Positions 3,802 through 45,998 of a stretch of DNA of 50,252 bases are shown in pieces. A model generated the notes under the pieces. That model was not told the origin of the DNA, searched no databases, and was given only the letters and a program-made list of their open reading frames with translations. A program made the position numbers and the translations under genes. The DNA lies in the IMG/VR virus record IMGVR_UViG_3300033049_000162, positions 1 through 50,252 of that record; one strand, 5' to 3'. Each line of letters opens with the position of its first letter. Within the stretch, counting starts at the first letter, position 1. The stretch is from a virus.

Positions 3802-4464
3802 ATGAGCACTTTGGGTGAAAATTTAAAGAAATTGCGTAAAGCAAAAAAAATGACCCAGAAGGAATTAGCGCAAAAGTCTGGAGTTAAACAATCGGTAATT
3901 TCCGAACTAGAAACTGGCACAGCTAAATCAACAGGTTCAATTCTTGAGCTAGCTAGCGCATTGGGCATTACCGCTGAAGATCTTAAAAAAGGTGTAGTTA
4001 GTGAATTTGACAATAACGTTGTACCTGTCACCTCAAAATTAATCCCTGTTTTATCATGGGTTCAAGCTGGATCAATGACATCTGTAGAGGAAATAAATCC
4101 ATTAGATATTTCTGAATGGTTGCCACCTTTAAGTGCTGATGATCCTGATGGTTGTTTTTATTTAAAAGTAGTTGGTATTAGTAATTCACCTACCTACATG
4201 GAGGGTGACTGTATTTTAGTAAATCCAAAATTTCAGGTGTGTGACTTAATTTCTGGAGATTTGATTGTTGTTAGAAATAACACTGATGCAACATTTAAAA
4301 AATTAGTTATTGAAAGTGATGAGCGTAAATATTTACAAGCTCTTAATCCAAACTTTCATCCTAATATTATTGAATTTGAAGAAGGAATGGTTTTAGTAGG
4401 TTTGGTAATTGATGCATTTAGACCGCTTGGTGGTTCTCGCCCTAAGCGAATGAGAAAAAGTTAG
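3802..4464 (+). CDS. cI: CI repressor with S24 autoprotease domain (prophage 1)
   Basis: 220 residues. N-terminal helix-turn-helix of the XRE/HTH_3 type at about 6-62 (MTQKELAQKSGVKQSVISEL) and C-terminal LexA/CI-type S24 domain at about 80-208. The self-cleavage site is Ala-Gly at 89-90 (VQAGSM). The catalytic pair is Ser127 (GISNSP) and Lys166 (ATFKK). It should hold the lysogenic state and be inactivated by RecA-stimulated self-cleavage during the SOS response. It leads an operon with the next three plus-strand genes, which would be expressed in the lysogen. Confidence 0.93.
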   Translation: MSTLGENLKKLRKAKKMTQKELAQKSGVKQSVISELETGTAKSTGSILELASALGITAEDLKKGVVSEFDNNVVPVTSKLIPVLSWVQAGSMTSVEEINPLDISEWLPPLSADDPDGCFYLKVVGISNSPTYMEGDCILVNPKFQVCDLISGDLIVVRNNTDATFKKLVIESDERKYLQALNPNFHPNIIEFEEGMVLVGLVIDAFRPLGGSRPKRMRKS

Positions 4465-28592: not shown

Positions 28593-29420
28593 TTAACTAA
28601 ATGATTTTCTACATTCAAAAAATGATTGATAAGCAAAACCTTTTGAATAAGCAAACTTATCAAGTGGTTTTACAAATATTTCAGAAGCATATGCCTTATC
28701 AATTAAAAGTACTTCGTATTTTTTTAAATCACTATTTGAATAAGGAGACTGATTATTCATTTGAATCTGTGTTTCTTTAGGTATTCCAGCTTGGCGACCT
28801 TGCATCACATTTTCAGCTATATCAAATACAGTTTTACATAACAAATCGTTCTTTAAAATAGCAAGCTTCTTTTGCTCCATTTGAATTAAATCATCCTTAC
28901 TCGGAATTGAATTAGAACTTCCTAAATTTTTAAAATCATTTTCAGAGTTCCAGTTAATATTCCCAAATAAAACATCATTCGCATCTTTACTATTCTTTAA
29001 AGCTTCAATCAAATAATTATCTTTATCACCAATAAGATAAGTGTTTAAGTCATTATCCAACAAAACTACTAACATTTTTTTATTTAAATAATCATAAGCA
29101 ATATAACTTGTTAAGTTTTGATCCATAAACTTTTGGTTCTTTTGCCAAAAATATGTGGTTACAACATTGGGTTGTAAATTTTTCTTTGATAAGCATTCAC
29201 TCATATCAAAATCAGTTGCCTTTAATGTACTAAATGAGTTCAGTTTAGAATTAAGAATTTTTTTAAATCCATCATCTATCTTCATCAAGGTGAAACCACT
29301 TATTGTACATTGTGAAATTTGCTTATCAGTTAACTTATATATTTCATTAATTGATGTTAAATTTTTAGCATTTAATACTGTACAAAACCCAAACATTAAA
29401 CCAAAAAGCAATCTTTTCAT
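28593..29420 (-). CDS. Secreted cargo protein (moron) in the tail operon
   Basis: 275 residues with a signal peptide (MKRLLFGLMFGFCTVLNAKN). Four conserved-looking cysteines lie in the mature part. The C-terminal half, from LLCKTVFDIAENVMQGRQAG to the last Cys near residue 271, resembles a repeat pattern I associate with small secreted proteins of Acinetobacter prophages, but no function is known to me. Terminator-like hairpins flank it and it is more A+T-rich than the tail genes, as expected for an inserted lysogenic-conversion gene. Confidence 0.7.
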   Translation of the reverse strand: MKRLLFGLMFGFCTVLNAKNLTSINEIYKLTDKQISQCTISGFTLMKIDDGFKKILNSKLNSFSTLKATDFDMSECLSKKNLQPNVVTTYFWQKNQKFMDQNLTSYIAYDYLNKKMLVVLLDNDLNTYLIGDKDNYLIEALKNSKDANDVLFGNINWNSENDFKNLGSSNSIPSKDDLIQMEQKKLAILKNDLLCKTVFDIAENVMQGRQAGIPKETQIQMNNQSPYSNSDLKKYEVLLIDKAYASEIFVKPLDKFAYSKGFAYQSFFECRKSFS

Positions 29421-29492: not shown

Positions 29493-29509
29493 CAATACTT
29501 GCTATTTGA

Positions 29510-30157
29510 CTAAATCCCTCGCCAACTCAGCTGACCAAGCAAAGGCAATAACTCACCATCAAGCTCCAATGACTTTTCCATCTTGTCCAATTGACGCAAA
29601 AACAGCTCTAACTCTTGACGAATGGTCTGACAGTCACGCTTAACTACATCCAGATCTCTACGACGAATCGCAGTCACATTATTGGCATCACGCACAATCA
29701 AGGTGCCATCATTTTTATTTTCAATAAAATACTTACCCTCTGCTTTAGGCAAGTACATCATATTTTGATTCGGTGTAAATTGTTGAGGTTGAGGCAGTGT
29801 CTTAGTCGCTTGATGAAAATAACTGTCCTCAAGCTGTTCAAATACTTCCCATGCATGATCCGTGTCTAACATTTTGGCATGACGTGCTGCACCTCGTTCA
29901 GTCCATAAAATCAAGTGCTTTGCATTTGGACTGACTAAGTGACTTTGAGTTACCTTGTCCTTAAATTCTCTTAGTACAGCACCTTCAATTTTAAAAAAAT
30001 GCTTTCCCTCAATAAATTTAGTTTTATTTCGATTAAAATTCTTCTTAATATTATCCGCTACAGTTTCATACAACTGCGCTAAAAGCTCTGTAGTTACAAC
30101 AGGAACATTTTTAAAAAGAATAACCTGATTATTAGATGTAGAAATTCGTGTATTCAT
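29510..30157 (-). CDS. ORF6N-domain antirepressor-like protein
   Basis: 215 residues from ATG 30157 (GGGAG ribosome site). An ORF6N DNA-binding domain covers about residues 8-110 (PVVTTELLAQLYETVADNIK, then KFIEGKHFFKIEG, then LILWTERGAARHAKMLDT). A charged coiled coil lies near 165-205. Such proteins act as phage antirepressors or regulators. The start codon lies inside a 17-bp palindrome and the leader contains a C4-like structured RNA. It interrupts the lambda order between GT and the tape measure gene. Confidence 0.85.
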   Translation of the reverse strand: MNTRISTSNNQVILFKNVPVVTTELLAQLYETVADNIKKNFNRNKTKFIEGKHFFKIEGAVLREFKDKVTQSHLVSPNAKHLILWTERGAARHAKMLDTDHAWEVFEQLEDSYFHQATKTLPQPQQFTPNQNMMYLPKAEGKYFIENKNDGTLIVRDANNVTAIRRRDLDVVKRDCQTIRQELELFLRQLDKMEKSLELDGELLPLLGQLSWRGI

Positions 30158-30166
30158 AATGAATAC
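30150..30166. promoter_or_regulatory. Palindrome covering the antirepressor start codon
   Basis: Perfect palindrome GTATTCAT-A-ATGAATAC with the ATG (minus 30157-30155) at its centre. It could be an operator for autoregulation or an RNA hairpin hiding the start codon. Confidence 0.6.
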
Positions 30167-30200
30167 TCCCAGAGAGAAGGAATTTTTCACCACCAAATTT

Positions 30201-30295
30201 AAGGCTAAAAAATTGGGTGGCGGATTAAGTAGGATTAGCCTTACCAGTCTCTAGGAAATCTGGCGCACCGAAGTGCTCCTACCTAACCCACCATA
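30201..30295 (-). ncRNA. C4-like antisense RNA candidate in the antirepressor leader
   Basis: On the minus strand a closing helix of 13 pairs (30289-30277 with 30234-30222, two G-U pairs) encloses two hairpins: GCAC-UUCG-GUGC (30276-30265) and a CCAG/CUGG hairpin (30263-30244). A segment AAGGCUAA (30242-30235) is fully complementary to UUAGCCUU (30208-30201) nearer the gene. This closed multi-hairpin fold plus a complementary target upstream of an antirepressor is how C4 RNA of phages P1/P7 is organised. Pairing is seen; identity is inferred. Confidence 0.6.
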
Positions 30296-30334
30296 GCAGG
30301 CACTTTCTACAGGGCGTAAAAAGCTATAGGCATT

Positions 30335-30352
30335 AAAAAACCGCCAAGCGGT
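30335..30352 (-). terminator. Terminator-like hairpin upstream of the C4-like RNA
   Basis: Stem CCGC-CAA-GCGG (30341-30351), with six T following on the minus strand. It separates the GT chaperone gene from the antirepressor unit. Confidence 0.7.
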
Positions 30353-30360
30353 CTTTTGGT

Positions 30361-30505
30361 CTAGAGAATTGATTGGAGGCTAATCCAAGCATCAGATTTT
30401 GCTGATGCATTTTTAAAGTAGCTTGGATTTATCACAATGTCAATTCACCTATGCGAAATCAAAGTTTACTTAATTTTAATTATAAAATCTAACTAAAATT
30501 AATAT
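30361..30505. other. Intergenic stretch with nested inverted repeats
   Basis: No gene seen. ATCCAAGC (30383-30390) pairs with GCTTGGAT near 30421-30428, enclosing GCATCAG-N6-CTGATGC. A nine-base segment GGCTAATCC (30378-30386) is complementary to a part of the C4-like RNA at 30232-30240. Confidence 0.45.
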
Positions 30506-31263
30506 TTATTGCGCAATCGCAAATAATGCTTCAAATAAATCTACTTCGACTTCTTCAGGCTGATCCTCATGAGGCATTAATGTAATCGGATTAATACGAT
30601 GTTTTGCCTCAACCTTGCCATTATGATAGAAAGCCATTAGATCACCTATTGCCTGCTCGACACGACGACCAATATTGAAGCTACCTCGACGTTGCCGATA
30701 AGCTCGCCAAATCGCAATTTCTTTTAAACTTATTTTTTCGGATGCTTCTTCAAGGGTTCGTCCACCGACTCCGTTGAGGACAAGCTCGCAGAGGAGTTCA
30801 CACTGGTCGAGTTCTTCGTCCGAGACTTTCCCATAAAGTTGTTAATATCATCAGCAAGTTTATAAAGTGCAGCGATAAAGGCTGGATCAGAGTCATAAAC
30901 ATCTTGAACCGATTCAAAAAATGGGGAACCTTTTGCATCTTCACAAATACAGCCAATCAATTGAGAAGCTTGCAAACGATCCGAATCAACAGACTTCAAT
31001 TCTGACTTTTCAATGTCGTCATAATTGATGTCCCATTCATAGGCTTTGGCAACATCACGACCCGCTTTAAAACTCAAACGCTTGATGAATACCTGACCTT
31101 CAAGTTCAACCTGTTCATCCACTTTTAACTTAGAATTTTGGGTTAAATCAATCAGATCAAGAATATTTTGCTCAGTCGCAATGACCGACCATTTAAGTGT
31201 GTGCTCGACTGGAGCACCCGCTTTGGTGATCTTTTTCGCTTTTTTAAAATCTACTATAGCCAT
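30506..31263 (-). CDS. Tail assembly chaperone GT (-1 frameshift product)
   Basis: About 252 residues made by -1 frameshifting at GGGAAAG (30832-30826), the same slippery heptamer lambda uses for G-T. Residues 1-146 are shared with G. The T part continues VSDEELDQCELLCELVLNGV and holds EIAIWRAYRQRRGSF, typical of T-domain proteins, ending at TAA 30508-30506. The chaperone pair coats the tape measure during tail assembly and is absent from virions. It directly precedes, after an inserted cassette, the tape measure gene. Confidence 0.88.
30730..31263 (-). CDS. G: Tail assembly chaperone G
   Basis: 177 residues from ATG 31263 (the longer frame start at 31290 lies in a hairpin). Acidic N-terminal domain about 1-145 (MAIVDFKKAKKITKAGAPVE). 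After the slippery site the zero frame continues with a Ser/Thr-rich tail (NSTSVNSSASLSSTESVDE) and ends KKHPKK. This is the major product; a minority of ribosomes shift frame to make GT. Confidence 0.88.
   Translation of the reverse strand: MAIVDFKKAKKITKAGAPVEHTLKWSVIATEQNILDLIDLTQNSKLKVDEQVELEGQVFIKRLSFKAGRDVAKAYEWDINYDDIEKSELKSVDSDRLQASQLIGCICEDAKGSPFFESVQDVYDSDPAFIAALYKLADDINNFMGKSRTKNSTSVNSSASLSSTESVDEPLKKHPKK
30826..30832 (-). other. -1 ribosomal frameshift site GGGAAAG
   Basis: Zero-frame codons are ATG GGA AAG, so the heptamer fits X-XXY-YYZ. Slipping one base back opens a 106-codon frame with clear T-like sequence. Identical to the lambda site. Confidence 0.88.
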
Positions 31264-34908: not shown

Positions 34909-35148
34909 TTACTCACCTTTTTGTGCAGATTTTTTCCCATTTTTGACCTGATCAACAGGATCAACAGGATCAACAGGATCAACAGGATCAACAGGATCAA
35001 CAGGATCAACAGGATCAACAGGTTGATTATCACCAACCAATTCAGCAACTTTCATTTTGATCAAGATATTTGCTTCATAATCTTGCAAATCATGGACACT
35101 ACCCGCTGGACCAGAACATAAATCACTCAAAAACTTAACTTTTGGCAT
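34909..35148 (-). CDS. Small head protein with VDP tandem repeats
   Basis: 79 residues. The N-terminal 42 residues are a compact domain (MPKVKFLSDLCSGPAGSVHD) common in head operons between capsid and portal. The rest is a tandem run of Val-Asp-Pro units followed by a Lys-rich end. The repeat should make an extended, acidic linker. Role in the capsid unknown. Confidence 0.7.
   Translation of the reverse strand: MPKVKFLSDLCSGPAGSVHDLQDYEANILIKMKVAELVGDNQPVDPVDPVDPVDPVDPVDPVDPVDQVKNGKKSAQKGE
34950..35021. repeat. Eight perfect 9-bp tandem repeats
   Basis: GATCAACAG repeated eight times without mismatch (34950-35021), in frame with the small head protein and encoding VDP. Perfect short tandem repeats change length easily by slippage, always in frame here. 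Confidence 0.95.
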
Positions 35149-45113: not shown

Positions 45114-45126
45114 GTTGGTCTCAAAA

Positions 45127-45191
45127 ATTAAGATAACTTAATTTATTAAACCCAATTTAACTTTCTACGTCAAGAATTAAGATAAGTTAAT
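45127..45191. promoter_or_regulatory. Prophage 2 right operator and pR
   Basis: Palindromes ATTAAG-ATAA-CTTAAT (45127-45142) and ATTAA-GATAAG-TTAAT (45176-45191), with a partial copy near 45153-45163. Minus-strand promoter TTGACG (45173-45168), 17-base spacer, TTTAAT (45150-45145) lies between them. CI/Cro binding is inferred. Confidence 0.8.
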
Positions 45192-45221
45192 TTATATATT
45201 CGATCATTAAAGGTTCTTTTT

Positions 45222-45863
45222 ATGGAAACTGTAGGCACTAGAATTAAAAAGCTGCGTAAACAGAAGAAATTTACTCTGAAAGAACTTGCATCAAAAGTAG
45301 GTGTTTCGGATGTTTCAATATCTAATTGGGAAAATGATGTTAATACGCCCAAGCATGAACATTTAACTTTACTTGCACCAAATCTCGATACAACTATTGA
45401 TTTTATTATGTATGGGAAAACTGAAGATATTGAGAATGTATCAGACTTCAGACCAGTAACCAGAATGTTACCAGTTTTGACTTATATTCAATGCGGAACA
45501 ATGACTAACGTTAAAAGCATTGCACCTCATGAAATTGAAATGTGGTTACCTGCACCGCCTGATGCTAGTAAAAATAGTTTCTATTTAATCTGTCAAGGTA
45601 TTAGTAATGCACCAGAATTTAAGGATGGTGATTTTGTTTGTATAAATCCAGATATACCCTTCGATAATGTTCAGCATGGGGAAATGATTGCGGTATGTCA
45701 GGATGATGAGGCTACTTTTAAGGCTCTAGTAAGAGAATTTAACAGCTTACATTTGAAGGCATTAAATGAGAATTTCCATCCTAATATCATCCCATTGAAA
45801 GAAGATTTTATTTACAAAGGTAAATATGTTGGAAAATTTACTCCACCCAAAAAATTTATTTAA
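45222..45863 (+). CDS. cI: CI repressor with S24 domain (prophage 2)
   Basis: 213 residues. Helix-turn-helix at about 18-38 (FTLKELASKVGVSDVSISNW), S24 domain about 80-205. The cleavage site is Cys-Gly at 91-92 (IQCGTM) instead of Ala-Gly. Catalytic Ser128 (GISNAP) and Lys167 (TFKAL). C-terminal domain is related to CI of prophage 1, while the DNA-binding part differs. A terminator follows at once, so no rex-like genes are present here. Confidence 0.93.
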   Translation: METVGTRIKKLRKQKKFTLKELASKVGVSDVSISNWENDVNTPKHEHLTLLAPNLDTTIDFIMYGKTEDIENVSDFRPVTRMLPVLTYIQCGTMTNVKSIAPHEIEMWLPAPPDASKNSFYLICQGISNAPEFKDGDFVCINPDIPFDNVQHGEMIAVCQDDEATFKALVREFNSLHLKALNENFHPNIIPLKEDFIYKGKYVGKFTPPKKFI

Positions 45864-45900: not shown

Positions 45901-45930
45901 GTACCTCAAAAATCATAGACTTCAAAAAAT

Positions 45931-45998
45931 ATTAACTTGTCTTAATTTTTATGTTGACAATAAAATTAAGTTGTCTTAATTTAATTAAACAAATTAAG
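45931..45998 (+). promoter_or_regulatory. Prophage 2 left operator and pL
   Basis: TTGACA (45954-45959), 17-base spacer, TAATTT (45977-45982). Operator palindrome ATTAAG-TTGT-CTTAAT (45965-45980) covers the spacer; a one-mismatch copy ATTAAC-TTGT-CTTAAT lies at 45931-45946 and a weak half at 45993. The same motif stands upstream of cro. Confidence 0.8.

Follow-up and report, generated by a model that had tools for sequence, protein, structure and literature searches.

The analysed DNA, a stretch of 50,252 nucleotides covering positions 1 to 50,252 of the virus record IMGVR_UViG_3300033049_000162 (the window), very probably carries a C4/antirepressor immunity module of the P1 type from a temperate Acinetobacter phage (estimated probability about 85%). 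An antisense RNA of the C4 family was found between two copies of its own target words, one copy inside an isrK-type RNA and the other in the leader of an antirepressor gene, ant. The record also carries an integrase and two CI-like repressors, and the phage is therefore regarded as temperate. The first-pass annotation of this DNA had proposed a C4-like antisense RNA upstream of an ORF6N antirepressor and gave no strand. Every element of the isrK-C4-ant module was located on the minus strand.

A search with the Rfam C4 model (RF01695, release 15), which the first-pass annotation had suggested, resulted in a match over the full model at 30298-30213 (minus strand). The score of 68.3 bits was well above the gathering score of 45, with an E-value of 2.8e-11. 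Folded alone, the same segment had a minimum free energy of -38.5 kcal/mol compared to -23.7 +/- 3.4 kcal/mol for dinucleotide shuffles (z = -4.37), and none of 200 shuffles was as good. The closed helix described previously was recovered, with 17 pairs and not the 13 that had been counted, and it encloses two hairpins, one with a UUCG loop, as had been reported. The eight-base complementarity noted before, AAGGCUAA (30242-30235) with UUAGCCUU (30208-30201), was exact and reaches nine bases when extended, UAAGGCUAA with UUAGCCUUA. A chance hairpin accompanied by chance complementarity was considered and rejected as extremely improbable, because of the Rfam E-value and the fold z-score, and it is refuted by the covariation of the words described below. 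Three features had been missed: a pairing b'-b2 over the Shine-Dalgarno sequence of ant, an upstream isrK element with its own terminator and, ahead of it, the target copies a1 and b1, and a hairpin displaying a2 by use of the 3' end of C4 itself. The elements of the locus are as follows:

30415-30443, minus strand: promoter-like element TTGACA-17-TACTTT, predicted from the sequence, with a start expected near 30408.
30334-30408, minus strand: isrK-type RNA with two hairpins, target-copy words and a terminator (RF01394, 54.0 bits, gathering score 50, full model).
30377-30385, minus strand: a1, GAUUAGCCU, complement of C4 a', within isrK hairpin 2; covaries in 116 of 119 loci.
30361-30367, minus strand: b1, UCUCUAG, complement of C4 b', followed by the isrK terminator; 96 of 119 loci.
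30213-30298, minus strand: C4 antisense RNA (RF01695, 68.3 bits; fold z -4.37).
30216-30292, minus strand: predicted mature C4, GGUGGG...CCACC, 77 nt, with ends taken from the annotated P1 C4.
30248-30256, minus strand: b', UCCUAGAGA, in the loop of the third (last) C4 hairpin, from the C4 alignment and the sequence.
30233-30243, minus strand: a', UAAGGCUAAUC, at the C4 junction, from the C4 alignment and the sequence.
30200-30208, minus strand: a2, UUAGCCUUA, target of a' in the ant leader; nine exact pairs, 103 of 119 loci.
30188-30222, minus strand: alternative hairpin CGCCACC...GGUGGUG with a2 in the loop, competing with the C4 closing helix; -13.4 kcal/mol.
30167-30175, minus strand: b2, UCUCUGGGA, target of b', overlapping the Shine-Dalgarno sequence; nine pairs with b', one of them G-U.
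30166-30170, minus strand: Shine-Dalgarno sequence GGGAG of ant, 8 nt before the AUG at 30157.
29510-30157, minus strand: ant, ORF6N antirepressor of 215 amino acids (PF10543, PHROG and identity to AnrP; activity predicted).

The hexamers of the promoter-like element are identical in L003, one of the two nearest viral homologues, and the isrK of the Salmonella prophage Gifsy-1 has a TTGACA upstream of its TATATT. A consensus promoter scan did not flag the element at 30415-30443, the -10 rule of the scan being missed. The predicted mature C4 has the same length as P1 C4, and GGU is present at the cut site expected in the window. The words a' and b' can pair with a2 and b2, and b2 coincides with the ribosome-binding site of the gene downstream, as expected of a C4 RNA. 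For b2 in the window, five bases match b' exactly and the nine pairs need one G-U. As judged from its position over the Shine-Dalgarno sequence, b'-b2 is the part expected to do the repressing.

The identification of an ORF6N antirepressor downstream of C4 was upheld. The ant product matched Pfam PF10543 (ORF6N) with 70 bits and the PHROG category 'anti-repressor', and was 50% identical to Gifsy-1 AnrP over 172 residues. The gene is embedded in a tail operon, as had also been stated, between the tail assembly chaperone and tape measure genes. ant starts 58 nt after C4, and the icd gene found in this interval in P1 immI is absent. A protein-coding leader equivalent to orf45 or icd was considered and rejected, as the frame is closed in the window: the orf45 frame reads AUG GUG GGU UAG, with a stop after three codons, and the Gifsy-1 trait of an orf45 frame coupled to the antirepressor is not present. 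ORF6N homologues in the phages BUCTT11, qsb1, Attikon1, TCUAN1 and ENT39118 had no C4 or isrK within 700 nt, and the RNA thus accompanies one branch of the ORF6N proteins and not all of them.

Other features of the surrounding operon were observed. A slippery GGGAAAG is located at 30826-30832 (minus strand) in the tail assembly chaperone gene (31263-30506), where a -1 shift, comparable to that of the lambda G/GT pair, gives a product of 252 residues that ends shortly before the isrK promoter. The gene at 28593-29420 (minus strand), between ant and the tape measure gene, has a signal-peptide-like N-terminus, and a reading frame of 79 residues in the structural region (34909-35148, minus strand) contains a run of VDP repeats.

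C4 loci for comparison were obtained from Acinetobacter genomes, a sample of the class, P1 and Gifsy-1. The C4 model was used to gather relatives because protein-pattern scans for ant gave few loci. C4 was found in 146 of 176 Acinetobacter genomes and in 24 of the 369 genomes sampled from the class. In the two nearest viral homologues, L002 and L003, a' is AAGUCCAA and both a1 and a2 are UUGGACU, while b' is CUGUUGA and both b1 and b2 are UCAACAG. The window differs from these loci on both sides of all four pairings. A word match was defined as an exact match of at least seven bases between the a' or b' of a locus and its own targets, and was scored in 119 non-redundant loci. Matches to the locus's own word were found for a1 in 116, a2 in 103, b1 in 96 and b2 in 88 loci, compared to highest counts of 38, 31, 28 and 25, respectively, in 5000 random re-pairings. 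The window locus is outside the 88 b2 matches, having five exact bases only and needing a G-U pair. Duplex energies for 91 loci concurred: for each pairing, none of 2000 permutations was as good, and control stretches 90 nt downstream gave no signal in this test. Since words are shared among related loci, the re-pairing counts do not represent independent events, and the number of types is a better guide. About 25 a2 types were distinguished (27 by simple counting, a few of which are the same word in another register), together with 64 different b2 words, and b2 was located on the Shine-Dalgarno sequence in nearly all loci. Covariation in homologous leaders, proposed as a check in the first-pass annotation, was present both in L002 and L003 and in the set of 119 loci. 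At the level of sequence comparison, this indicates that one three-part RNA code recurs with some 25 specificities.

In all nine ORF6N-type loci, a hairpin with a2 in its loop can form between the C4 3' end (CGCCACC or CACCACC) and GGUGGUG or GGUGGCG beyond a2, with energies of -13.4 to -18.1 kcal/mol; the value for the window is -13.4 kcal/mol. One pair of this hairpin is compensatory, being A-U in Gifsy-1 and Hafnia, G-C in PhiR12_3 and Actinobacillus, and G-U in the window. In a comparison of 103 loci, the hairpin arms fitted their own partner best (none of 5000 swaps was as good), with a small gain of -6.65 versus -5.71 kcal/mol. Because the a2 hairpin shares its bases with the closed C4 helix, the two are alternatives of which a transcript can form only one; the C4 helix was favoured over the a2 hairpin when the RNA was folded in isolation.

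The following circuit can be proposed for the locus. A single transcript starting near 30408 would comprise isrK with a1, b1 and the terminator, followed by C4, a2, b2 and ant. Where transcription continues past the terminator, C4 would fold and be excised from the transcript as the 77-nt RNA. On the ant leader, the a'-a2 pairing would serve as the address and b'-b2 would cover the Shine-Dalgarno sequence, and no antirepressor would then be made in the lysogen. Transcripts ending at the isrK terminator would give a short RNA showing both target words, which could soak up C4 and free ant when transcription rises. Ant is predicted to act on one of the two CI-like repressors of the phage. The circuit itself is of a known kind, and the newer reading would be that of IsrK as a C4 decoy. 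The wider proposal is that IsrK-type RNAs, including Gifsy-1 IsrK, are decoys of the C4 on the same transcript, that antisense, target and terminated mimic form a three-part circuit with about 25 address types, and that the 3' end of C4 chooses between the closed C4 and display of a2. This proposal is put forward at about even odds.

The CI-like repressors have S24 peptidase domains, are encoded at 3802-4464 and 45222-45863 (both plus strand) in the one record, and are 41% identical. An operator-like palindrome, AATTAAGNNAACTTAATT, occurs four times in the surroundings of the CI-like gene at 45222 (45126-45192 and 45930-45981), and a weak copy with three mismatches is located at 30458-30475, upstream of the isrK promoter. 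A search for operators common to the CI-like repressors and the isrK promoter returned this weak site and two sites in L003. The distance of the sites to the promoter is not kept, and a shared operator of the CI-like repressors and the isrK promoter therefore remains a lead suggested by the sequence. In the P1 record AF234172, a C1 operator is annotated at the c4 promoter.

Experimental data bearing on the proposed circuit are available for Gifsy-1, where the locus was studied as isrK-orf45-anrP by Hershko-Shalev et al. 2016 (PMC4825925). These authors described an RNA, orf45'/STnc1160, which is about 80 nt long and arises by processing of the read-through transcript. Their text does not use the term C4 RNA; sequence comparison identified orf45'/STnc1160 as a C4. 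All 12 checked bases of the published numbering fitted one start site only (the next best site fitted 7), which places C4 at nucleotides 103-186, G28A and G31A in a1, and C159U and C162U in a'. Reporter values were 4 for the wild type, 484 for C162U and 926 for C159U, and the double mutants G28A/C162U and G31A/C159U reached 224 and 327 (PMC4825925). The double mutants restore a1-a' but leave a2 unmatched, so derepression is expected if C4 acts via a2 and b2, and this was observed. IsrK supplied in trans gave 114- to 171-fold activation, and none if it carried G28A or G31A (PMC4825925).

In the model of Hershko-Shalev et al., the isrK segment pairs in cis with the RNA that follows it to form an inactive leader, the short IsrK opens this leader in trans, translation of orf45 is coupled to that of the antirepressor, and no separate antisense RNA takes part. 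Mutant and native-gel data in Gifsy-1 (PMC4825925) support the model, and the a1-a' pairing on which it draws is present in the window too. However, the window lacks an open orf45 frame, double mutants restoring a1-a' only partly regain repression (PMC4825925), and the covarying a2 and b2 words are left unexplained. An explanation of the window locus by pairing in cis is thus considered improbable.

Two further results from Gifsy-1 bear on the role of IsrK. Constitutive orf45/STnc1160 made the growth arrest and toxicity caused by IsrK stronger, not weaker (PMC4825925), which is evidence against a simple decoy. Furthermore, G28A in a1 raised anrP translation in cis (PMC4825925), an effect that a plain decoy does not predict and that a termination effect at a1b1 could explain. 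Such an effect would resemble the P4 system, with C4 pairing to the nascent a1b1 and raising termination at the isrK terminator, and control would then be mainly of transcription. According to PMC4825925, this is how the P4 CI RNA operates with seqA and seqC, and cis changes in a1 raise expression in Gifsy-1 (PMC4825925). Among the target words, a1 and b1 are retained best (116 and 96 of 119 loci), which points in the same direction. Control mainly of transcription is nevertheless rather unlikely, since b2 lies on the Shine-Dalgarno sequence in nearly all loci and the effect of Gifsy-1 IsrK was 139-fold on translation compared to 8-fold on transcription (PMC4825925). A termination role of the C4-a1b1 pairing could act together with the block of translation in the P1-type module.

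High expression and apparent processing at a GGW motif have been described for the C4-like RNAs of A. baumannii (PMC5320573), and it has been proposed that they are host-adapted small RNAs with targets in trans. At the position of this motif, the window has GGU. Acinetobacter genomes can indeed contain many C4-like RNAs, with a maximum of about 20, and some of these RNAs are without a2 and b2 in cis. The copy in the window lies next to ant with all of its cis targets present, most other copies have theirs as well, and a host-adapted role is a very improbable explanation for the window copy. At most of the Acinetobacter C4 loci examined, cis targets were found with no recognised antirepressor adjoining. 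One Acinetobacter genome (G072) has 20 dispersed C4 copies. Many copies in the genus precede a very short reading frame and not an antirepressor, and several loci have kept a1 and b1 and lost a2 and b2, some of them upstream of apparent TetR-type regulators. At eight loci, C4 modules were observed upstream of antirepressors or regulators of the unrelated families AntA, Bro-N, Rha and ORF6N.

With the P1-type reading, an immunity circuit known from textbooks would also govern an ORF6N antirepressor located in the tail operon of an Acinetobacter phage. Reading IsrK as a decoy would offer a simple, testable account of how it switches on anrP, and two short words may predict which prophages can silence each other's antirepressor. 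Beyond the addition of another C4 module, the contribution would lie in considering C4, isrK and the C4-like RNAs of A. baumannii together.

Among the known systems, Gifsy-1 of Salmonella (NC_010392) is the nearest studied relative, in which isrK, C4, a2, b2 and anrP, an ORF6N antirepressor gene, follow each other as in the window. In Gifsy-1, the orf45 frame is open over C4 and the locus adjoins the Q gene, whereas the window has no orf45 and the module is located in a tail operon. The c4-icd-ant region of P1 (immI, AF234172) has a1, b1, C4 (77 nt), a2 and b2 in the order of the window, and the P1 C4 matched RF01695 with 68.8 bits. In its GenBank record, a1 and b1 are annotated as putative ahead of C4, and a2 and b2, which follow C4, are marked as repression sites. 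As cited in PMC5320573, P1 C4 is processed by RNase P, with b' pairing to the ribosome-binding site and a' to sequence upstream of it. P1 differs in having icd between C4 and ant, and its ant1/ant2 are arranged otherwise than ant of the window. Rfam calls c4-a1b1 and no isrK in P1, and isrK but no c4-a1b1 in the window. The c4-a1b1 model (RF03163) matched in P1 and Gifsy-1 and gave no match at E-values up to 1 in 29500-30800 of the window, though the a1 and b1 words are present there. In Gifsy-1, c4-a1b1 overlaps isrK, and a link between C4 and isrK is therefore implicit in Rfam; no paper stating it was found in the literature search. The P4 CI RNA, as described in PMC4825925, is like the window C4 a processed antisense RNA between two target copies, but with seqA and seqC it controls termination in the replication operon and not an antirepressor; the likeness is drawn from this published description. 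Group 1 of the C4-like sRNAs of A. baumannii AB5075 (PMC5320573) shares both RNA family and genus with the window C4, whereas the AB5075 RNAs were described as host sRNAs with possible trans targets. The comparison brings together work on P1 C4, on the IsrK of Gifsy-1 and on the abundant C4-like RNAs found in A. baumannii, three subjects without cross-reference to each other in the literature searched.
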